Below, piece after piece: positions 38,450 through 60,307 of a DNA stretch of 64,000 bases (its first letter is position 1; each line of letters starts with the position of its first letter). This DNA comes from Anabaena sp. FACHB-1237 (lineage in GTDB: Bacteria; Cyanobacteriota; Cyanobacteriia; Cyanobacteriales; Nostocaceae): assembly GCF_014696225.1 (NCBI RefSeq), contig NZ_JACJPV010000005.1, forward strand, positions 1 to 64,000, in the 5' to 3' direction. A program made the position numbers and the translations under genes. The notes under the pieces were generated by a model, which worked only from the letters and a program-made list of their open reading frames with translations, did not search any database and had not been told where the DNA came from.

Positions 38450-40114
38450 ATGAGTCTTTGTATTAATCCTAACTGCCAAAATCCAGATAATCCGAATAAT
38501 CGGGTAAATTGTGCTACCTGTCGTTCAGAGTTATTACTACAAGGGCGTTATCGGGTAATCAAAAAGTTAGGAAGCGGAGGTTTTGGTAATACCTTTGAAA
38601 TTGAGGAAGCCAGAACCAATACTCCTAAAGTTCTCAAAGTTTTAAATAACTATGACCCTAAAGCCATAGAATTATTCAAACAAGAAGCAGATGTTTTAAG
38701 TAAATTGAGTAAATTAAATCATCCTGGTATTCCTCAAGTAGAACCAGATGCTTATTTCATATATAAGCCCTATCAAAGTAACTATCCAATTTATTGTATA
38801 GTCATGGAAAAAATTGAGGGAATTAATTTACAAGAATATATGGAAATCCGTAATTATCGTCCCATTGATCAAACTTCAGCTATTGAATGGTTAAAGGATT
38901 TAATTAATATCCTAGATGCAGTACATGGTGAAAACTTTTTTCACAGAGATATTAAACCCCCTAACATTATGCTTAATAATAGTAGCCAATTGGTACTAAT
39001 TGATTTTGGTACAGTTAGGAAAAATACACGTACTGTGGTTAACCAACAAGGAGGAGTTACACAAATTAATTCTGCAGGTTATACACCGCCAGAACAACTC
39101 AATTTTAATGCTGTACCTCAATCTGATTTTTACGCTTTAGGCAGAACTTTTGTTTATTTACTTACAGGAAAATTTCCCCTTGATCCTGATATTTATGATA
39201 ATCAAAATGATCAGTTAAATTGGCGTAATCATGCTCCTGAAATATCACATAAGTTAGCAGATTTACTAGATGATATGATGCAGCGTTTATATAAAGATCG
39301 TCCTCAAAATACTCAGGAAATTTTACGACGTATTGCCGCTATTGAAGCTAATGTAAAGTCTACCAAAACTCCCAATCAACCGCCAAATTCTACCTCTCAA
39401 ACACTAAATAAGACAACACCAGTTACAGACAATTCATCTCCTGGATCAACTATGATTATGGAAAATAATCCAATTACACAAGATCCATCTTCTAGTTCAG
39501 ATACAAATATTATTCCAGAAAATAATAATATTCAAAATCAGGGTTTAAGTAAACAGTTAATAACAGGAATTCCTCTTACTCTCGCTATAATTACTACAAT
39601 TATTGCAATATTAATTATTGCAATATTCAGAGCAATTACAATTACACCAAGAGAAAATCTACTGACTTATGAAAATCAACAATATGGAATAAAAATAATT
39701 AAATATCCAGAATCTTGGAACAAAACAGAACCACAAAATCCACTGACAAAGGAATTTGTTAGTTTTATAGCACCTAAACAAAATCCTGAAGATAAATTTC
39801 AAGAAATGTTAACCATCGGTGTAGAAAATTTTAATGGTACACTAAATGAATTTGCTGATTCTAATATTAAAGACATTAAAAATACTATTTCAGCAGCAAA
39901 GATTCTTGAAACAAGTTCCACTACTTTGGCTGACGGAAAAGCTAAGAAAATAGTGTATATTGGTAAAAATGGCACAGATAATTTAAAGAATATGCAGATT
40001 GTCACATTAAAAGGCGATCGGGCTTATATAGTAACTTATACAGCAAAAACAGATGATTATGAGCAGTTTCTCCAAACAGTAGAAACAATGATTAAATCAT
40101 TAGATATCTTGTAA
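38450..40114 (+). CDS. Zinc-ribbon Ser/Thr kinase with exported C-terminal domain
   Basis: A 554-residue Hanks-type kinase. The N-terminus carries four cysteines (C4, C9, C21, C24) as a zinc ribbon, common in cyanobacterial kinases. The kinase domain spans about 33-295: glycine loop GSGGFGN at 41-47, lysine in VLKVLNN (K63), HRDIKPPNIML at 165-175, DFG at 185-187, and an APE-like TPPEQ. A disordered linker and one membrane helix (about 375-400) follow. The C-terminal domain (about 415-554: YGIKIIKYPESWNKTEP to ETMIKSLDIL) resembles PsbP/DUF1795 and is shared with the kinase at 51127. It is predicted to sense or bind something outside the membrane. Confidence 0.88.
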   Translation: MSLCINPNCQNPDNPNNRVNCATCRSELLLQGRYRVIKKLGSGGFGNTFEIEEARTNTPKVLKVLNNYDPKAIELFKQEADVLSKLSKLNHPGIPQVEPDAYFIYKPYQSNYPIYCIVMEKIEGINLQEYMEIRNYRPIDQTSAIEWLKDLINILDAVHGENFFHRDIKPPNIMLNNSSQLVLIDFGTVRKNTRTVVNQQGGVTQINSAGYTPPEQLNFNAVPQSDFYALGRTFVYLLTGKFPLDPDIYDNQNDQLNWRNHAPEISHKLADLLDDMMQRLYKDRPQNTQEILRRIAAIEANVKSTKTPNQPPNSTSQTLNKTTPVTDNSSPGSTMIMENNPITQDPSSSSDTNIIPENNNIQNQGLSKQLITGIPLTLAIITTIIAILIIAIFRAITITPRENLLTYENQQYGIKIIKYPESWNKTEPQNPLTKEFVSFIAPKQNPEDKFQEMLTIGVENFNGTLNEFADSNIKDIKNTISAAKILETSSTTLADGKAKKIVYIGKNGTDNLKNMQIVTLKGDRAYIVTYTAKTDDYEQFLQTVETMIKSLDIL

Positions 40115-40431: not shown

Positions 40432-41067
40432 TTAGTCCTTAGGACACTCTCTAACTTTGTTAGATACCCACCGACGACAAGATAAAAAACCTAATAAACC
40501 ACTGCCTTTTTCTGCACAATATCCTTTATCTGTTTCTGTTGCTTCTCGATTAACTTCTGAGACAGTAGAACTACTAGTCACAAAAGCAGAAAATTGTCCT
40601 CTTTCAATTACGGAATTTTCTTCTCTAATTTCATACTCAAAGTCATTGTTATCTCTTTTTACCACAAATACTCTATTGCGATGTTCAGTACCACTAGTTA
40701 TCTCAGTTGATTGGGATGATCTACCTTTGCTATAGTCGCGTTCCGTAAAGGGAAAATTATCAGGAGACATTCCTCTGCTAATATTTCTAATAATAACCTT
40801 TCTGCCCTTTTTTGGAGGTTCTGTGGATGACGTAAACCATGCTTTTACTTTACCTATATAAATTTGGGAACTAGGACATTCGCCTACATATCTATATAAA
40901 GGTAGGACTATTTGATTCAGTTGTGATTGTCCGTCAACTTCAAAACCCACTTCTGGTTGAGCAGAAGAAGACTGTCCCCACACTGGAAAAGACTCCATAA
41001 ATACTAATGGAGTTGAAAGTAGAAAGATTTTCATTAAATAAGATAGATAGCTAATTTTCTTGGACAT
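40432..41067 (-). CDS. Secreted hypothetical protein
   Basis: A 211-residue protein with an N-terminal signal peptide (MSKKISYLSYLMKIFLLSTP, cleavage near VWGQ-SSS). Four cysteines (two in GECPSS and KGYCAEK, two near the end in SCRRWV and RECPKD) could form disulfides. The middle is Ser/Thr/Arg-rich. I do not recognise a family. It is last in a run of four minus-strand genes (COP23, trypsin, trypsin-GUN4, this), 82 bp behind the GUN4 fusion, so it is probably part of the same exported set. Confidence 0.65.
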   Translation of the reverse strand: MSKKISYLSYLMKIFLLSTPLVFMESFPVWGQSSSAQPEVGFEVDGQSQLNQIVLPLYRYVGECPSSQIYIGKVKAWFTSSTEPPKKGRKVIIRNISRGMSPDNFPFTERDYSKGRSSQSTEITSGTEHRNRVFVVKRDNNDFEYEIREENSVIERGQFSAFVTSSSTVSEVNREATETDKGYCAEKGSGLLGFLSCRRWVSNKVRECPKD

Positions 41068-41149
41068 TTTTATACCTCAATAGATGAAAAAAATTGATTA
41101 AAAAAATGCAAATTATTGAATTGCGAGGGAATGGAATTATTATACTAAA

Positions 41150-42376
41150 CTATATCTTACAACTGTCCAAATAGGCAATAAATTTTCCCCAAATAGGACC
41201 ATCTAAAAATAATTTAGGAAGATGTCCAACAGGAGCATCTGTAGAATAGTTAATATCTTCATTAGGGATGTATCTACCACGATAACGCCAGCCTAATTCA
41301 GTAGCAAAGTCTGCAAAATTTTGGTTATTTGATTCAAATTTGCTCCCAAATAACTCTTTCCACTTCTGTAGTTGCACCGTAAAACCAAACCTCCCTTGAC
41401 TACTGGTTTTCCACATTTGACTTATCTTGCTTAAACTGGTGCAAGATAATCGAGAAATTCCCTTTTCATTAATTATATTAGAACTTTGACTCATAGCTAA
41501 CAATAGAGATTTTGTTTCTTGATCAGCTTCTTTCCAGCTACCTTGAAATAAAAATTCTTCCAATTTATCAGTATTGGTACTAGAATTTGCTATAGTATCT
41601 GTTGGTGAAATTATATCTACACTTACCCCAATTCTAGTTAATAATGGTAGAAAAATACTGCTGGAAATTCCTGAATTTCTTCCTGATTTTATAATAGCAA
41701 CATCCCTATTGATAAGATCAGGAATGATCTCAGTTGCTCTTTCACCTCTACCATGTATTGCTATAACTTGCTTGGCATCATTTAGAACTGCTCCTCCACT
41801 CATTCCTGGTAATGTAGGATTATCATAACTTAAATTATAGCCATCATTATTAATATAAGTTTTACCAATATTTTCTATTACTTTCCCGTCTCGGCAATCA
41901 TAAATAGATGATTTTATGGCTCCAGTTTTTACTGGATAACCAGCCACATAAACTTTTGTTCCTCTTTTTATTTTTTCAGAATTACTAAATTTAGCAACTT
42001 GATAATCTTCATCACTTGTAAATTCTAAAATAGCTAAATCAAGATTATTTGCTAGGGGTTTTACTGTTTCATAATTAAATTGATGTATTTGTTTATCTGC
42101 AGTCAATATTTCATATTTAAGTTTTGGATCATCAACAACATGATAAGCTGTAAGCACAGTGTAAACATTACCTTTTTTATTGATAATTACACCAGAACCT
42201 GGTTTTCGACTATTGATTAAAACAGTTATTTTTTCAGCGATTCTATCTACTTTAGTATTACTACATATTGCCTGAGCAACTTCCGACTGAATAAATGTGA
42301 TTAATACTCCACTGATTACTGTTAATATTTTATACTTAATCTTCATAATTGCTAGAATTGTGTATTCATAATTCAT
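41150..42376 (-). CDS. Secreted trypsin-like protease fused to GUN4
   Basis: A 408-residue two-domain protein. A signal peptide (about 1-36, ending EVAQA) leads into a trypsin-like domain with a full catalytic triad: H79 in LTAYHVV, D113 in NNLDLAIL and S193 in PGMSGGAVLN. Residues about 265-408 fit a GUN4 domain, the module that binds porphyrins in chlorophyll synthesis (EFLFQGSWKEADQETKSLLL, W-TSSQGRFGFTVQLQKW, ELGWRYRGRYIPN). AGGAAGG seven bases before the ATG at 42376 supports this start over the ATG at 42346. It is 72 bp behind another protease gene. A GUN4 domain outside the cytoplasm is unexpected; the ligand is unknown. Confidence 0.85.
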   Translation of the reverse strand: MNYEYTILAIMKIKYKILTVISGVLITFIQSEVAQAICSNTKVDRIAEKITVLINSRKPGSGVIINKKGNVYTVLTAYHVVDDPKLKYEILTADKQIHQFNYETVKPLANNLDLAILEFTSDEDYQVAKFSNSEKIKRGTKVYVAGYPVKTGAIKSSIYDCRDGKVIENIGKTYINNDGYNLSYDNPTLPGMSGGAVLNDAKQVIAIHGRGERATEIIPDLINRDVAIIKSGRNSGISSSIFLPLLTRIGVSVDIISPTDTIANSSTNTDKLEEFLFQGSWKEADQETKSLLLAMSQSSNIINEKGISRLSCTSLSKISQMWKTSSQGRFGFTVQLQKWKELFGSKFESNNQNFADFATELGWRYRGRYIPNEDINYSTDAPVGHLPKLFLDGPIWGKFIAYLDSCKI

Positions 42377-42448
42377 TTATTTGCCTTCCTCTGTCAAAAT
42401 CTGAGATAATAAATTTGGTGCAATGTGAAAACCAGCGTCTTCGGATAA

Positions 42449-43243
42449 CTATCTATGAAAATCTGAATTAGATATCTCGAATTTACCCATCATTTGCACT
42501 ACCTGATCTATTGGTATAGCCCAACTCAAACGTACAATTTCTTGATGTAACTTTTCCTCTGCTTGGGAACCATCAATAAACATAGAAGGAGCATCCCATA
42601 AAGGATAAGCGTGCATTCCATTTACACCTACAACCTCACCCTGCTTATTCAATAAAGCACCGCCACTCATCCCTTTTTCTAAACGATTTGTATATCCCAC
42701 TTGATAACCAGCTTCTAAGGCTTTTGATAACACCAAAGATACTGTACCACCAATGAATACAAAGCTGACTTGTTGACTTTCCTCCTCCATGGGAAAACCA
42801 GCCACAAATACCTCATCTCCTACTTTGGGAACATTACCAAAATTGGCCACAGAATACACTTTTTTAATACTCGAAAATTCCAATATTGCTAAATCATAAT
42901 TGTGAAAATTTATATTTTTTGGTACATCTGCTTGATAGATTTCTCCGTCTGGTGTTTGAATACGATAGGGTGGATTATCTGCTCGTAAAACATGGGCATT
43001 GGTTAATACTCTATAAACTGAATTTTGTTTATTCAGTAATATTCCTGAACCCAAAAACTCTGTTGATAATATCTTTACAGTAATTGCCATTGCTTTTTCC
43101 TGTAATTGTACTAGTGATAATTGAGTGGGCAGTTGTATAATATTGGATGGTTCAGTGTAAGTATTTATAGTTGCTACTGAACTTAAAACCAACATTGACA
43201 AACTGCCTATATAAGTAATAACTTTTAATACACGCCAATTCAT
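42449..43243 (-). CDS. Secreted trypsin-like serine protease
   Basis: A 264-residue protein with an N-terminal hydrophobic segment (about 8-27) that is a signal peptide or anchor. The trypsin-like domain has H84 in LTNAHVL, D117 in NYDLAIL and S193 in KGMSGGALLN; the oxyanion-loop arrangement matches the GUN4-fused neighbour and the protease at 53622, so the three are paralogues. There is no PDZ domain, unlike Deg/HtrA. It begins six bases behind the COP23 gene, so the two are almost certainly co-transcribed. Confidence 0.87.
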   Translation of the reverse strand: MNWRVLKVITYIGSLSMLVLSSVATINTYTEPSNIIQLPTQLSLVQLQEKAMAITVKILSTEFLGSGILLNKQNSVYRVLTNAHVLRADNPPYRIQTPDGEIYQADVPKNINFHNYDLAILEFSSIKKVYSVANFGNVPKVGDEVFVAGFPMEEESQQVSFVFIGGTVSLVLSKALEAGYQVGYTNRLEKGMSGGALLNKQGEVVGVNGMHAYPLWDAPSMFIDGSQAEEKLHQEIVRLSWAIPIDQVVQMMGKFEISNSDFHR

Positions 43244-43249
43244 GTTAAT

Positions 43250-43798
43250 TTAATCTGCTTCAACCGTAGCATTATCCAGATAAAGATCGAAATCAATATT
43301 GATTGCGTCATCTGCACTTTCATTGAGTACATTACCAGCAGCTAAACCCCGACGATCTAACAGTCTGCGTAAAGTCTCTCCAGGATTAACCCCACGTTTG
43401 AGGGTAAATAATAAATTCCTATCTGTACAAATAGTATTTTTCTTAATACCAGCACAAACAACTGGTTCACCTCTAAGCGTCCCAGTAGTAATATTTTTCA
43501 GAGTACGGTTATCATTACTGCGTTGAAATCTTCGTGATACCTCTTCACAACGTTTTTGAGCAGTCCAAGGTGGCGGAAAATAACTATTTGATGTCCAGTT
43601 AATTATGGTAACTTTCCTCCCATCTTGAGTACGGGCAAAGGTAACAGGTATCCCTTTACTTTTGCCACAGTAAAAATTTGTTCCTTGGCCGTTACTGGGT
43701 TGAACTAGGGTAGTAATTGTGGCTAATGTTGTTAGGGAAGCTAAAGTAACCGTTGTTGTTACTCTCAGCAAAATTTTACTAAAAATTTTTTCTTTCAT
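43250..43798 (-). CDS. COP23-type exported protein
   Basis: About 182 residues. A signal peptide (hydrophobic to about residue 30, ending NGQG) precedes the COP23 domain, named after a circadian-oscillating membrane protein of a unicellular cyanobacterium. Recognisable parts are FYCGKSKGIPVTFARTQDG, CEEVSRRFQRSNDNRTL, GEPVVCAG and NLLFTLKRGVNPGETLRRLL, with paired cysteines. The paralogue at 55804 shares them (FYCDRRGGEFFTFMRTEDR, CEEVSSRFQRSYDNGTL). ATG at 43798 is preferred; the frame also has a TTG nine bases earlier. It is first of a four-gene run with two proteases. Confidence 0.85.
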   Translation of the reverse strand: MKEKIFSKILLRVTTTVTLASLTTLATITTLVQPSNGQGTNFYCGKSKGIPVTFARTQDGRKVTIINWTSNSYFPPPWTAQKRCEEVSRRFQRSNDNRTLKNITTGTLRGEPVVCAGIKKNTICTDRNLLFTLKRGVNPGETLRRLLDRRGLAAGNVLNESADDAINIDFDLYLDNATVEAD

Positions 43799-51019: not shown

Positions 51020-51126
51020 GCTAGTAAAATACCCAGCATACAAGAATTTTACCAGTGATATTTTTACCTTATTTATCTATATGCTATGTTAAAAATAGTT
51101 TAGGATAGATTAGAGGAGTGAAGACA

Positions 51127-52476
51127 GTGATCGGCAAAATCATTAAAAGACGTTATGAAATTATCAGTCTTTTAGGAAAAGGTACATTTGGTACTACTTA
51201 TTTAGCACAAGACAACGACTTACCGGGATATCGTTGCGTAGTTAAGCATTTTACCCCATCAAGCAAAAATCCAGAAGAATTAAACAAAGCTACAGAATTA
51301 TTTGCCAGAGAAGCTCAAACATTACAAAAGTTTCCCAAACATAATCAAATTCCCACACTTTTAGCTTATGTTCAAGAAGATCAGGATTTTTTCATCATTC
51401 AAGAATACATTGAAGGACATGATTTAACAGAAGAATTATCAAAACTTGCTGGTGTTACTATGCATGAAAATTCTGTAATTGAATTATTAATAGATATACT
51501 GGAAGTATTAGCAATAATTCATGAAAATAAAATTATTCATCGAGATTTAAAACCTAGTAATATTAGAAGAAGAACCAAAGATAATAAAATTGTCATTATT
51601 GACTTTGGTGCTGTTAAGCAAGTAGGAGATCCAGTACAAACAATTGTCGGTACTTTTGGATACATGGCACCGGAACAAATACGAAAAAAACCACAACTTA
51701 ATAGTGATATTTATTCCATAGGAATCATTGGCATTCAAGCATTAACAGGAATTGATGCTCTAAATTTAAAAGAAGATAGTGTCACAAGAAAAATAATTTG
51801 GCGAAATAGTAGCAAAGTCAGTCATAAATTGGCCAATATTTTAGATAAAATGGTTAGTTATGATCCCACAGAACGTTATGAAACAACACAAAAAGCATTA
51901 AAAGATCTAAAAGTATTAAAAAGTGGTGGTGATAAATTAAATGTATGGTGGATAATTGTAGTTAGTTTTTTACTAATTACAATTACAGGATTAGCAATAT
52001 TTTTGTTTATTAAACGTCCTGTTGCTGAGTGTGGAGGATCAACATTACCATATTCTCACCAAAAATATCTAGTAAATATCCCATATCCTGAATGTTGGAA
52101 CCGGGATGACTCGGAAGATCCTTACGGTAAAATAGTAACATTTATTCAACCTGATTTAAAAGCCAAGTTGATTATTCATGCTTTTGAATATTCACAGAAT
52201 TTAGATAATTATCAAATATCAGAAGTTGACGATTTAAAAACATCCTTAGATATGGCAGATATAATTAAAAAAAATGATGCTATTATTGCCAACAAACCAG
52301 GTAAAATGATCATTGTTACTGCTAAAGATGGTAATGAAAAAATCAAAAATATGTATTTACTAACTTTAAGAGGAAGTACCGCTTATCGCATTACCTACAC
52401 CGCATCAGAAAAAGACTATGATAGATTTTTACCAACGGTAGAATCAATGATAAAATCATTAGAAATTAATAAGTAA
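51127..52476 (+). CDS. Ser/Thr kinase with exported C-terminal domain
   Basis: About 449 residues from the GTG at 51127, which is spaced eight bases from AGAGGAG; a GTG at 51118 overlaps that site. The kinase domain starts at once (GKGTFGTTYLAQD, V-K-HF lysine, HRDLKPSNIRRR, IDFGAVK, MAPEQIRKKPQLNSDIYSIG). One membrane helix follows at about 275-297 (WWIIVVSFLLITITGLAIFL), then a C-terminal domain homologous to that of the kinase at 38450 (YLVNIPYPECWNRDDSEDP, NMYLLTLRGSTAYRITY, FLPTVESMIKSLEI). There is no zinc ribbon. Its substrate and signal are unknown. Confidence 0.88.
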   Translation: MIGKIIKRRYEIISLLGKGTFGTTYLAQDNDLPGYRCVVKHFTPSSKNPEELNKATELFAREAQTLQKFPKHNQIPTLLAYVQEDQDFFIIQEYIEGHDLTEELSKLAGVTMHENSVIELLIDILEVLAIIHENKIIHRDLKPSNIRRRTKDNKIVIIDFGAVKQVGDPVQTIVGTFGYMAPEQIRKKPQLNSDIYSIGIIGIQALTGIDALNLKEDSVTRKIIWRNSSKVSHKLANILDKMVSYDPTERYETTQKALKDLKVLKSGGDKLNVWWIIVVSFLLITITGLAIFLFIKRPVAECGGSTLPYSHQKYLVNIPYPECWNRDDSEDPYGKIVTFIQPDLKAKLIIHAFEYSQNLDNYQISEVDDLKTSLDMADIIKKNDAIIANKPGKMIIVTAKDGNEKIKNMYLLTLRGSTAYRITYTASEKDYDRFLPTVESMIKSLEINK

Positions 52477-52539: not shown

Positions 52540-53142
52540 TTATTCCTGCTTAATCGCACTGATTAAAATTCCTAAAATCTTTTTCACATCCTTGATATAA
52601 TATTCAGTTAAATCAATAGAAATTATCTTATTTTCCAACTTTAAAAACTGCCAAATAGTACCGATAGTTACAGCACCATAAATAATCTTAATCGGATTTT
52701 GTTTTTGTTGATTAAACAGTTGGGCAGCCAGCATTTCCGCTATACATTGAGCTAAACCTGATTTTAAGTTCTCATTTTTACTTTCTACCAATGTAATTAC
52801 AGGTGCACGGATAAAAAGCTGTTCTTTAGAAAGACTAATCAGAAAATCACAAAAACCATTTAAACCTTGTTGGTTATCCACATTAAAATCTACTCCTGAA
52901 AATAGACTAATTTGATTATTTAATTTCCTTCTCACTTCTAATAAAATAGGGCTAATTATCATTTCCGAACGAGCTTTTTCTGTATTAATTGAATTTGCTA
53001 AATCAACATTTTCTTTCAAAATTATTGTTAATAAATCACTAGGTTCTTCTTCTGATACATCCGCAAATAATCCCGATACTTCATTTAATGTCAATTCAAA
53101 TTTTTGGATAATTTCACTTAATTTAAAATCACTATAAGCCAT
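52540..53142 (-). CDS. PD-(D/E)XK nuclease-like hypothetical protein
   Basis: A 200-residue paralogue of the protein at 10565. The fold core is visible as GFCDFLISL (D99), [14 protein letters not shown] (E120, K122), a helix [12 protein letters not shown] and [11 protein letters not shown]. The N-terminal helices differ. It converges with the kinase gene and has no restriction or modification gene next to it. A weak AAAGGT site precedes the ATG at 53142. Nuclease function is inferred from the motif order only. Confidence 0.7.
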
Positions 53143-53621: not shown

Positions 53622-55550
53622 TTATTGTTTTAATTCTCTAGGTAAAGTAGATAGCAATTTCTTAGCATCTCTGATTATTTTATCACCCCAAAGATTCTTT
53701 TTGAGAAAGTTGACATCAGCAAAGTTTTTATTTAATTTTAACGCAGTCGCTGCTAATTGATAAGCTTGTTCTTTTTCTCTTTTAGTATATAAAGCCACAG
53801 CTAAAGCTAATATGGGTTCAGCTGATTTATTATCAATTTTCATGGCTTTTTGCCATTGTTTAATAGCTGTTTCTTTGTCTCCCTGTTCATATTTTATCAA
53901 GCCTATATTAATAACAGCACCTAAACTATTGGCATCTTTAGCAACCGCCTGATTATATTCAGATATTGCAGCTATGTAGTTTCCTTGTTGATGATAAACA
54001 ACTCCCCGGTTGAAGTAGGCATTGGCATATTTAGGATTAATATCAATAGCTTTGGTGAAATCTGCTATTGCTCCTTGGTTATCTCCTAAATCAGATTTAG
54101 CATTTCCCCGGTTGAAGTAGGCATCGGCATATTTAGGATTAATATCAATAGCTTTGGTGAAATCTGCTATTGCTCCTTGGTTATCTCCTAAATCAGATTT
54201 AGCATTTCCCCGGTTGTTGTAGGCTAGGGCATATTTAGGATTAATATCAATAGCTTTGGTGAAATCTGCTATTCCTCCTTGCTTATCTCCTAAATTATAT
54301 TTAGCAAGTCCCCGGTTGTTGTAGGCATTGGCATAGTTAGGATTAATATCAATAGCTTTGGTGAAATCTGCTATTGCTCCTTGCTTATCTCCTAAATCAG
54401 ATTTAGCAACTCCCCGGTTGTTGTAGGCTTGGGCAAGGTTAGGATCAATATCAATAGCTTTGGTGTAATCTGCTATTGCTCCTTGGTTATCTCCTAAATC
54501 AGATTTAGCAACTCCCCGGTTGTTGTAGGCATAGGCATAGTTAGGATCAATATCAATAGCTTTGGTGTAATCTGCTATTGCTCCTTGCTTATCTCCTAAA
54601 TTATATTTAGCAAGTCCCCGGTTGTTGTAGGCATAGGCATAGTTAGGATTAATATCAATAGCTTTGGTGTAATCTGCTATTGCTCCTTGCTTATCTCCTA
54701 AATCAGATTTAGCATTTCCCCGGTTGTTGTAGGCATCGGCATTGTTAGGATCAATATCAATAGCTTTGGTGAAATCTGCTATTGCTCCTTGGTTATCTCC
54801 TTTACTGTATTTATTATAAGCTACAGCAAAATAATCATCAGCTTTTAAACCTACTCCTGACGACTTAATACGCTGATCTGACGTAATTCGCACATAAGTA
54901 TTAATAGGAACACCAGCATATCTATCTGTGTTTCCTTGACTGTTTTCCTCTATTAATCCATTAATACCAATTAACTCACCCTGTTGATTTAAAACTGGTC
55001 CCCCACTCATCCCCTTTAAAATTTTATTAGTATAAATTAAATTATATCCACCATCTACGGTTACTTGGGTAGCATTAGCGTTAATTTGTCCATTCCGACA
55101 TTCAAACAAATAACTATTAATTGCACCAGTTTTAGCAGGAAACCCAGCAGTATAAACATTATCCCGACGTTTAGCGTTATCAGAATTACCAATTTTAGCC
55201 ACTTGATAACTCCTACTACTATTAAACTGCACCAGTGTTAAATCTATATTTGTTGCTAATTGCTTAATATTTTTAACATCTATTGGATAACGTTGCCCAT
55301 CAGGAGTGACAAGGGTATATTTTAAAGTTTTATCTGCAACGTTATGAAAAGAAGTGAGAATAGTATAAGTATTACCATCCCGTTTGATGATAGTTCCTGA
55401 ACCACCATTTCTATTTTCAATTAAAACGGTGATATTTTGGGCTATATCATCAACCTTTTGAGGACATGGTAAGTTTTGTCCTCTCGCTGGAGATGCCAGA
55501 GTGATAAATGTGAGAATAAATAAGCTAGAGATAGTATATTTGTACTTCAT
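53622..55550 (-). CDS. Secreted trypsin-like protease with TPR array
   Basis: A 642-residue protein. Signal peptide (about 1-24, ending SPARG), then a trypsin-like domain with H69 in LTSFHNV, D103 in NIDLTLV and S182 in KGMSGGPVLN, paralogous to the two proteases at 41-43 kb. From about residue 237 ten or more TPR repeats follow; the first eight are near-identical 34-residue units (NNRGNAKSDLGDKQGAIADY, TKAIDIDPN). At the DNA level these are 102-bp tandem repeats (about 54010-54830) with few differences, which shows recent expansion and a likelihood of copy-number change. The TPRs should bind partners in the periplasm. A COP23 gene lies upstream on the same strand. Confidence 0.9.
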   Translation of the reverse strand: MKYKYTISSLFILTFITLASPARGQNLPCPQKVDDIAQNITVLIENRNGGSGTIIKRDGNTYTILTSFHNVADKTLKYTLVTPDGQRYPIDVKNIKQLATNIDLTLVQFNSSRSYQVAKIGNSDNAKRRDNVYTAGFPAKTGAINSYLFECRNGQINANATQVTVDGGYNLIYTNKILKGMSGGPVLNQQGELIGINGLIEENSQGNTDRYAGVPINTYVRITSDQRIKSSGVGLKADDYFAVAYNKYSKGDNQGAIADFTKAIDIDPNNADAYNNRGNAKSDLGDKQGAIADYTKAIDINPNYAYAYNNRGLAKYNLGDKQGAIADYTKAIDIDPNYAYAYNNRGVAKSDLGDNQGAIADYTKAIDIDPNLAQAYNNRGVAKSDLGDKQGAIADFTKAIDINPNYANAYNNRGLAKYNLGDKQGGIADFTKAIDINPKYALAYNNRGNAKSDLGDNQGAIADFTKAIDINPKYADAYFNRGNAKSDLGDNQGAIADFTKAIDINPKYANAYFNRGVVYHQQGNYIAAISEYNQAVAKDANSLGAVINIGLIKYEQGDKETAIKQWQKAMKIDNKSAEPILALAVALYTKREKEQAYQLAATALKLNKNFADVNFLKKNLWGDKIIRDAKKLLSTLPRELKQ

Positions 55551-55672
55551 ATAGTTTTCATATTAGTTTATTCAAATATCTATTATAAAGACATTTATCT
55601 TTCTGAAGTTGTACTTAATTTCAAACCTGGGTTCTTTAACTGCTACAATGGGTAAAAATATACTTATGATTC

Positions 55673-55753
55673 AGATACCGGACTTCTCTAAGAAGTCCGG
55701 TATCTAACTACTCACTATTCAGATACCGGACTTCTCTAAGAAGTCCGGTATCT
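55673..55753. repeat. Two H1 hairpins and short direct repeats
   Basis: Two identical AGATACCGGACTTCTC/AAGAAGTCCGGTATCT hairpins (55673-55705, 55721-55753), followed by TAGTCCGCTATCTTAGT duplications to about 55795. They lie just behind the COP23 gene's 3' end. Confidence 0.7.
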
Positions 55754-55803
55754 TAGTTAGTCCGCTATCTTAGTTAGTCCGCTATCTTAGTTAAATAAGA
55801 TGT

Positions 55804-56319
55804 TTACTCGCTTTGTAAATTTTCCAAATATCTATTAAAGTCAAAATTTATATCATCTGAACCGTTAGCTGTAACATATTTACTATTACCTACAGCAACA
55901 GGATTAAATAATCTTTTACTAATATCTTTGGCTTGTGATTGTGTTGTTAAGGTAAATAATAAATTATTGTGATCGCAAGGTGTACCTATTTCTTTTGTAG
56001 CACAAATCACAGGTTGATTATTCAGTCTACCAACAACAATTTTGTTCAATGTACCATTATCGTAACTACGCTGAAATCTTGATGATACCTCTTCACAGCG
56101 ACTTTTGATATTATTATATGGTGGTGGAAAATCTGTAAGTGCAAATTGCATCACTTTGTATTTTCTTCTATCTTCAGTACGCATAAAAGTGAAAAATTCA
56201 CCCCCCCTTCTGTCACAATAAAAGGTGGTACTTTGACCATAAGTAGGTTTACTAATAGTAACAATGTTAGATAAAGCAGTCAGAGTCGCAACCATGAAAA
56301 CTTGTGTTAATTTTAACAT
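55804..56319 (-). CDS. COP23-type exported protein
   Basis: A 171-residue paralogue of the protein at 43250. Signal peptide (about 1-28, ending TYGQ), then the COP23 domain: TFYCDRRGGEFFTFMRTEDR, CEEVSSRFQRSYDNGTLNKI, QPVICATKEIGTPC, NLLFTLTTQSQAKDISKRL and the acidic end INFDFNRYLEN. The trypsin-TPR gene follows on the same strand after 253 bp and two H1 hairpins, so they share orientation but perhaps not a transcript. Confidence 0.85.
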   Translation of the reverse strand: MLKLTQVFMVATLTALSNIVTISKPTYGQSTTFYCDRRGGEFFTFMRTEDRRKYKVMQFALTDFPPPYNNIKSRCEEVSSRFQRSYDNGTLNKIVVGRLNNQPVICATKEIGTPCDHNNLLFTLTTQSQAKDISKRLFNPVAVGNSKYVTANGSDDINFDFNRYLENLQSE

Positions 56320-59701: not shown

Positions 59702-60307
59702 TTAATCATTAATAGCATTGAGTAATACTTCTGATAAACTCATATCTTCCATATCATCCATTGTTACTGTATCACAAATATCAAACTTTGCGCCAGCACC
59801 TTGCAATTCATCATCTAAGACTTTTAAAAAGCGAGTAGCTTGGGGATCATTGCCAACTTGAATAAAGGAAATGGCTAATTCCTCATCTCGATCCATTTTG
59901 CGAGATGCTTCAATAATTACTTTCATCACAGCTTTACGATCATCAGGTTCACCATCAGTAACTACTAAAATTGTTTCACCATTTGGTTTAGTTTGTCCTG
60001 CGGCTTTCCTTTGAAAATAATCATCTGTAGCAACTTTTAAAACTCCTGCTAAGTCTGTACTTCCTGATGGATCATTTTCTTGAAAAATTTGTCCCACTTT
60101 GCCAGATGTGACATTATCATATTTTTTAAATCTTCCAGAAAATAAATAGACTGTGATACCATCAGGATCAAATTGTTCACATTTACTTGCTAACGCCAAA
60201 GTTGATTCTTGGGCTGCTACCCATCTACTTCTACCACCTTTTTGGTCAGGTGTTGACATACTACCACTTTTGTCAATGATTAAAGTATAATCGCGGTTTT
60301 CTAACAT
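59702..60307 (-). CDS. vWA-domain protein (TerY-like), copy 1
   Basis: A 201-residue single-domain von Willebrand A protein. The metal-ion-dependent adhesion site is complete: DKSGSMS (13-19), the threonine/serine in SGSTDLAG and the aspartate in VVTDGEPDD. It has no signal peptide or membrane helix, so it should be cytoplasmic, like TerY of tellurite/stress operons. GGAG nine bases before the ATG supports the start. It is about three-quarters identical by eye to the gene at 60776, a tandem duplication. No TerD, PP2C or MoxR gene is adjacent. Confidence 0.87.
   Translation of the reverse strand: MLENRDYTLIIDKSGSMSTPDQKGGRSRWVAAQESTLALASKCEQFDPDGITVYLFSGRFKKYDNVTSGKVGQIFQENDPSGSTDLAGVLKVATDDYFQRKAAGQTKPNGETILVVTDGEPDDRKAVMKVIIEASRKMDRDEELAISFIQVGNDPQATRFLKVLDDELQGAGAKFDICDTVTMDDMEDMSLSEVLLNAIND

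Follow-up and report, generated by a model that had tools for sequence, protein, structure and literature searches.

The genome of Anabaena sp. FACHB-1237 raises the question of what COP23 (PF14218), to date treated as a stand-alone protein without an assigned function (PMC11131595), is doing in immediate vicinity of genes for exported proteases. Two such gene clusters are found in the window, i.e. the whole stretch of 64,000 nucleotides analyzed here (contig NZ_JACJPV010000005.1, positions 1 to 64,000), and both are accompanied by a kinase gene (Table 1). We asked whether these arrangements are conserved and which mode of action of COP23 they point at.

Two COP23-protease clusters and their products

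Module A was originally predicted to consist of genes for COP23, a trypsin (here T1), a trypsin-GUN4 protein (here T2) and a secreted hypothetical protein, and this order is indeed present, including a gap of only 6 bases between the COP23 and T1 genes. In module B, 253 bases separate the COP23 gene from that for the trypsin-TPR protein. Both COP23 proteins belong to PF14218, as they score 133.7 and 98.4 bits against a curated cut-off of 27 bits, and all three proteases of the window match Trypsin_2 with 74-75 bits. The triad motifs of T1 in module A read LTNAHVL, YDLAILEF and GMSGGAL. COP23 from the same module shares 79% identity with COP23 of family-mate L059, which has the same neighbours. 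Between kinase B and module B, a 200-residue hypothetical protein without convincing family match is encoded (52540-53142), and a gene for a vWA protein is situated outside module B at 59702.

Table 1. Genes of the two COP23 clusters in the window, their flanking kinases, and fusion proteins found at other loci. SP, signal peptide; TM, transmembrane segment.
Feature	Position	Strand	Basis
Kinase A: 4-Cys prefix, Ser/Thr kinase, TM, exported PsbP_2; convergent with module A	38450..40114	+	Pfam, NCBIfam
Module A, secreted hypothetical	40432..41067	-	no Pfam or NCBIfam match
Module A, second protease T2 (Trypsin_2) with C-terminal GUN4, exported	41150..42376	-	Pfam (Trypsin_2 74 bits, GUN4 88.2 bits); T2 lineage
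Module A, first protease T1 (Trypsin_2), exported, H/D/S present, no PDZ	42449..43243	-	Pfam; T1 lineage in tree
Module A, COP23 (PF14218), exported	43250..43798	-	Pfam (133.7 bits); signal-peptide-like N-terminus
Kinase B: Ser/Thr kinase, TM, exported PsbP_2; convergent with module B	51118..52476	+	Pfam
Module B, T2-type protease (Trypsin_2) with about 10 TPRs, exported; T1 absent	53622..55550	-	Pfam; T2 lineage in tree
Module B, COP23 (divergent), exported	55804..56319	-	Pfam (98.4 bits)
CHAT-TM-COP23-trypsin, one polypeptide	L118:5672-8191, Oscillatoria princeps RMCB-10		Pfam
SP-COP23-CHAT	L053; L057 and L058 laid out alike		Pfam
COP23 (N-terminal half)-T1	L147, L148		Pfam
TPR-CHAT-TM-PsbP_2, adjoining COP23	L181		Pfam
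Trypsin-PsbP_2 lipoprotein, adjoining COP23	L125		Pfam
SP-trypsin-COP23	L264

Signal peptides had been predicted for all products. Direct inspection of the sequences agrees with this, since every protein from modules A and B starts with a hydrophobic N-terminus of that type; for trypsin-GUN4, the start compatible with a signal peptide is the internal MKIKYKILTVISG and not the first ATG of the open reading frame. When signal peptides and N-terminal anchors were called by stringent criteria, 101 of 141 COP23, 46 of 70 T1 and 45 of 60 T2 proteins scored positive, compared to one of 30 kinases. Inspected proteins that failed these criteria mostly have similar N-termini all the same.

The secreted hypothetical protein had been counted as part of the module. 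It has relatives in 21 of 148 sampled genomes (its own included), and the four of them that we examined reside neither beside COP23 nor beside trypsin or CHAT genes. We therefore dropped it from the module; it is probably a passenger outside the conserved unit.

Conservation of the COP23-protease neighbourhood

In the genome containing the window, eight of nine COP23 genes have a gene for an exported Trypsin_2 protein downstream in the same orientation, at a distance of no more than about 1.3 kb, and 13 of the 19 Trypsin_2 matches adjoin a COP23. The probability of finding a downstream trypsin by chance is about 1% or less per COP23 gene (our own arithmetic, with 19 matches in 4.65 Mb). Chance is excluded as the cause of COP23-trypsin linkage in this genome, and the same is true for the COP23-kinase linkage described below.

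COP23 is present in 140 of the 148 sampled genomes of the order; in a sample of the whole phylum it scored above the cut-off solely in genomes of the same class. A trypsin gene is located downstream, within 2.5 kb, of 51 of the 77 COP23 domains in regions around high-scoring COP23 genes, and downstream of 45 of the 68 domains in 60 named loci retrieved by the COP23 motif alone. As high-scoring COP23 genes might be biased, we additionally took 64 COP23 genes, mostly from few-contig genomes, whatever their score. In this score-independent set a downstream trypsin was found for 33 genes, against about 1% expected, two more have a trypsin nearby, and 29 have no protease neighbour. When all loci are pooled, including those picked by score or by PsbP_2, 94 of 147 distinct COP23 domains have a downstream trypsin and a further 14 have one nearby. 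The count over cyanobacterial genomes proposed along with the original prediction thus came out in favor of a conserved neighbourhood; the outcome named there as a refutation, conservation no better than chance, was not observed.

In the clusters of the window we recognize copies of a unit widespread in cyanobacteria, which consists of COP23 and a fixed pair of exported proteases, often together with a transmembrane kinase. A search of the literature, largely outside subscription journals, returned no paper tying COP23 to a protease. The view that an undescribed envelope system for signalling and proteolysis, with a conserved COP23-protease neighbourhood, is encoded here is strongly supported. 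We see in these arrangements a first strong hint that COP23 acts together with proteases beyond the cell membrane.

COP23 genes without a protease group together on the COP23 tree and many fall into orphan clades. One conserved type, about 250-300 residues long and marked by a TVMYQP-like motif, occurs in most genomes (L044, L076, L152, L153, L158 and others) and is possibly the ancestral form. Another is a clade from smaller genomes of probably unicellular organisms. Unicellular nitrogen fixers may have their diel COP23 in a protease-free clade, and the same may apply to the original COP23 from Synechococcus RF-1. Given that many COP23 genes lack protease neighbours, COP23 can act without T1 and T2.

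Two lineages of exported proteases

In a tree of trypsin domains, the COP23-adjacent protease T1 and the next one, T2, part along one branch, with a support of 98 in a smaller and 83 in a larger tree. Among 147 placements, 70 members of the T1 lineage directly follow COP23 and not one lies second, while 61 T2 members take position 2 and 14 take position 1, the latter in clusters without T1. All 18 open reading frames encoding two trypsins are ordered T1-T2. The notion that the module is present twice in the window needs amendment in this light: COP23 followed by trypsin-TPR was found as predicted, but the lone trypsin of module B, which is among the 14, belongs to the second-position lineage although it comes first, and module B is thus a module without T1. 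The stretch between its two genes (55630-55790) is occupied by a tandem repeat of the inverted-repeat unit GATACCGGACTTCTTAGAGAAGTCCGGTATCTGA. The repeat is possibly a mobile hairpin element and may mark the site at which T1 was lost.

The catalytic triad is kept in nearly all neighbour trypsins (H in 145, D in 146 and S in 146 of 148). C-terminal tails of at least 110 residues are present in 49 of 60 T2 and in 13 of 55 T1 proteins; TPRs were detected in 43 of 73 scanned tails, GUN4 and WD40 in others. The GUN4 domain from module A scores 88.2 bits against a Pfam cut-off of 29.2 and was matched to the solved tetrapyrrole-binding proteins 4ykb, 7e2r and 1z3x. It is divergent in sequence and tetrapyrrole binding is putative. 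Evolutionary distances of COP23 and T1 correlate (Mantel r 0.54, 0 of 2000 permutations), indicating that the pair is inherited as a unit. The correlation by itself does not prove binding; operon duplication alone suffices for co-inheritance.

T1 and T2 might be regarded as Deg/HtrA relatives that lack PDZ and dispose of exported proteins once these are damaged, with COP23 as a chaperone-like or substrate-delivering partner and kinases that regulate expression only. This would agree with the export of the products, with weak matches of T1 and T2 to HtrA/DegS profiles and with TPR and WD40 tails that could bring in substrates. However, the window proteases reach only 25-55 bits with HtrA models whose equivalog cut-offs amount to 416 and more, and Pfam and NCBIfam profiles yielded no PDZ match in them. 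Strongly scoring HtrA-type genes exist elsewhere in the same genome (C37, C1), away from COP23, and the constant linkage with receptor-like kinases as well as the CHAT fusions resemble signalling. We consider such a role in periplasmic quality control unlikely.

Kinases with an exported PsbP_2 domain

Each module had been noted to be flanked by a kinase gene with the same exported C-terminal domain. We identified this domain as PsbP_2 (PF18933), which follows the transmembrane segment at the C-terminus of kinase A (37.7 bits) and kinase B (28.2 bits; cut-off 27). Kinase A furthermore opens with a 4-Cys prefix domain (NF045510, 38450-38550) that is absent from kinase B. Only four PsbP_2 domains are encoded in the genome. 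All are C-terminal on kinases and all four genes are located at most 5 kb from a COP23 gene, while the genes for the remaining 38 kinases counted all lie farther away (Fisher p = 9e-6).

Our survey of PsbP_2 covered all 70 matches over 148 genomes together with 60 of the surrounding regions, and comprised 41 kinase-PsbP_2 loci. COP23 resides within 9 kb in 20 of these, about 24 times the expected 0.83, so that the kinases were correctly regarded as linked partners; half of the loci have no COP23 within that distance. The convergent arrangement seen in the window recurs in 15 of the 20 COP23-linked loci, and PsbP_2 also occurs near COP23 in ten loci of the score-independent COP23 set. In a survey of cyanobacterial kinases from 2007, PsbP_2 is not among the kinase domains listed (PMC2176072). 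A shared origin of COP23 and PsbP_2 was considered and rejected, as the two show no similarity (hhalign probability 0.5%).

Structure, expression and natural fusions of COP23

The AlphaFold model of COP23 (pLDDT 82.9, pTM 0.80) predicts a strand-strand-strand-helix unit that occurs twice; four cysteines are conserved. Foldseek retrieved nothing from the PDB at E <= 0.001, a second look with VIA-align gave a best Z of 4.0 over 50 residues, which is inside the common background, and the COP23 profile did not match any PDB sequence. As judged from the model, COP23 would have no recognised fold in the PDB, which in itself does not prove a new fold.

High expression as well as diel or circadian oscillation have been reported for COP23 relatives, which are among the strongest diel-expressed genes in UCYN-A and, in a diatom endosymbiont, include the gene with the highest expression of all (PMC6315102, PMC11131595). 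Such a pattern would suit a consumable messenger, and in conjunction with the gene neighbourhood it could be taken to mean that COP23 is a protease substrate and that cleaved COP23 carries the message. Stable fusions of substrate and protease in several lineages and in both orders (Table 1) would then require self-cleavage, and among the readings weighed here we regard this one as the least probable.

In the protein from O. princeps, the layout suggests that COP23 and trypsin are placed across the membrane from CHAT, and it is possible that the protein constitutes an all-in-one transmembrane protease receptor. In a model of this fusion, the predicted trypsin part mostly has pLDDT values below 50 and an interface with COP23 is unreadable from it. 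A frame at L267:4492-5403 with a COP23 piece, a trypsin piece and TPR looks decayed and was left out of the list of fusions.

Since the fusion partners of COP23 comprise peptidases as unrelated as S1 trypsin and CHAT, an adaptor, scaffold or sensor is favored, and a substrate or classical inhibitor less so. Of the three roles originally offered, i.e. substrate, inhibitor or scaffold, the last is therefore the one we retain, while substrate and active-site inhibitor fit the fusions less well. COP23 could nevertheless serve as an inhibitor or pro-domain of T1 and T2 that is freed by a cue: it is a small, exported, disulfide-bearing domain, its gene is situated directly upstream of the protease gene, and it is N-terminal to the protease in the L118 and L147 fusions. 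Yet it also occurs C-terminal to a trypsin (L264), the fusion with CHAT, an unrelated cysteine-peptidase type, is ill-suited to a substrate-like S1 inhibitor, and many COP23 genes stand without a protease gene beside them. Inhibition appears rather improbable to us.

Proposed mechanism

The occurrence of COP23 in fusions with trypsins in both orders and with CHAT is best explained by an adaptor or sensor role, in which COP23 positions a peptidase or gates it. We therefore propose, at a probability of roughly one in two, that COP23 is a non-catalytic adaptor or sensor of the exported T1/T2 pair that signals to PsbP_2 kinases and, in some lineages, involves CHAT. The conserved order, the two lineages, triads, export signals, kinase linkage and fusions are the observations from which we infer binding, gating, direction of signalling and substrates. 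Bare T1 and tailed T2 would be the two active, exported proteases of trypsin type, and the TPR, GUN4 or WD40 tail of T2 would serve as an input or substrate-recruiting domain. The tails are of the same kinds as domains found on cyanobacterial kinases (PMC2176072), and T2 may thus carry input. COP23 would bind T1 and T2, or tether them to the membrane or envelope, and would gate protease activity upon an envelope or photosynthesis-related cue. Cleavage, or COP23 itself, would be read by the exported PsbP_2 domain of the adjacent transmembrane Ser/Thr kinase, whose phosphorylation of cytoplasmic targets is the likely route into the cytoplasm. In some lineages the caspase-like CHAT domain would fill a place in the same chain.

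More tentatively, COP23 may be an adaptor of new fold that defines an unrecognised class of extracytoplasmic protease-kinase complexes restricted to oxygenic cyanobacteria, in which it controls an ordered protease pair and signals to PsbP_2 kinases or CHAT. Kaur et al. suggested that GUN4 senses tetrapyrroles when attached to intracellular enzymes (PMC7159879). Extending that proposal, we regard the exported GUN4 as a possible extracytoplasmic sensor of these compounds. An envelope route from proteolysis to phosphorylation would likewise be added to cyanobacterial signalling, should the mechanism hold true. Although relatives of COP23 are strongly expressed and diel, the family is without known function, and its tie to proteases, kinases and CHAT renders control of the neighbouring protease by COP23 directly testable.

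Comparison with known systems

All parts of the module belong to known families; the combination and the putative protease-linked role of COP23 were not found in the literature searched, largely outside subscription journals. The proteins from Synechococcus RF-1 and UCYN-A are of the same family (PF14218) and likewise exported or membrane-associated, that of UCYN-A being abundant and diel. They have been described as stand-alone proteins, whereas the family is tied here to proteases by operon and fusion. With Deg/HtrA proteins (HhoA/HhoB/HtrA, DegS), T1 and T2 share export, the S1 serine protease fold and an intact triad, but they differ by the absence of PDZ, by scores far below the HtrA cut-offs, by the fixed T1-T2 pairing, by their TPR, GUN4 or WD40 tails and by having COP23 as a partner.

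The VMAP/Trypco NTP-dependent conflict systems (Kaur et al., 2020) also combine a trypsin with a dedicated partner and with GUN4, TPR, WD40, kinase and caspase-like parts. The COP23 module could accordingly be an exported branch of conflict or programmed-death systems of multicellular bacteria, directed against invaders or kin. Its parts list equals that of these systems (PMC7159879) and of DGR systems (PMC10907252), and up to 19-20 copies occur in some genomes. In contrast, the module products are exported, the partner is COP23, and Pfam and NCBIfam profiles detected no VMAP, MoxR, Trypco, EAD or STAND markers in the module genes; nor did the nine module and flanking proteins scanned contain a MoxR ATPase, vWA, VMAP or Trypco partner. 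Trypsins in effector position are nearly all inactive in those systems (PMC7159879), while COP23-linked trypsins have intact triads. Moreover, COP23 is present in most sampled Cyanobacteriales genomes, small ones too. A function in conflict is, in our opinion, quite improbable.

In DegS-type site-1 proteolysis and in receptor-like bacterial kinases (PknB/PASTA), an envelope protease or an exported sensor is likewise coupled to a cytoplasmic response. Unlike in these systems, protease and kinase are encoded together here, and the kinase sensor is PsbP_2 instead of PASTA.
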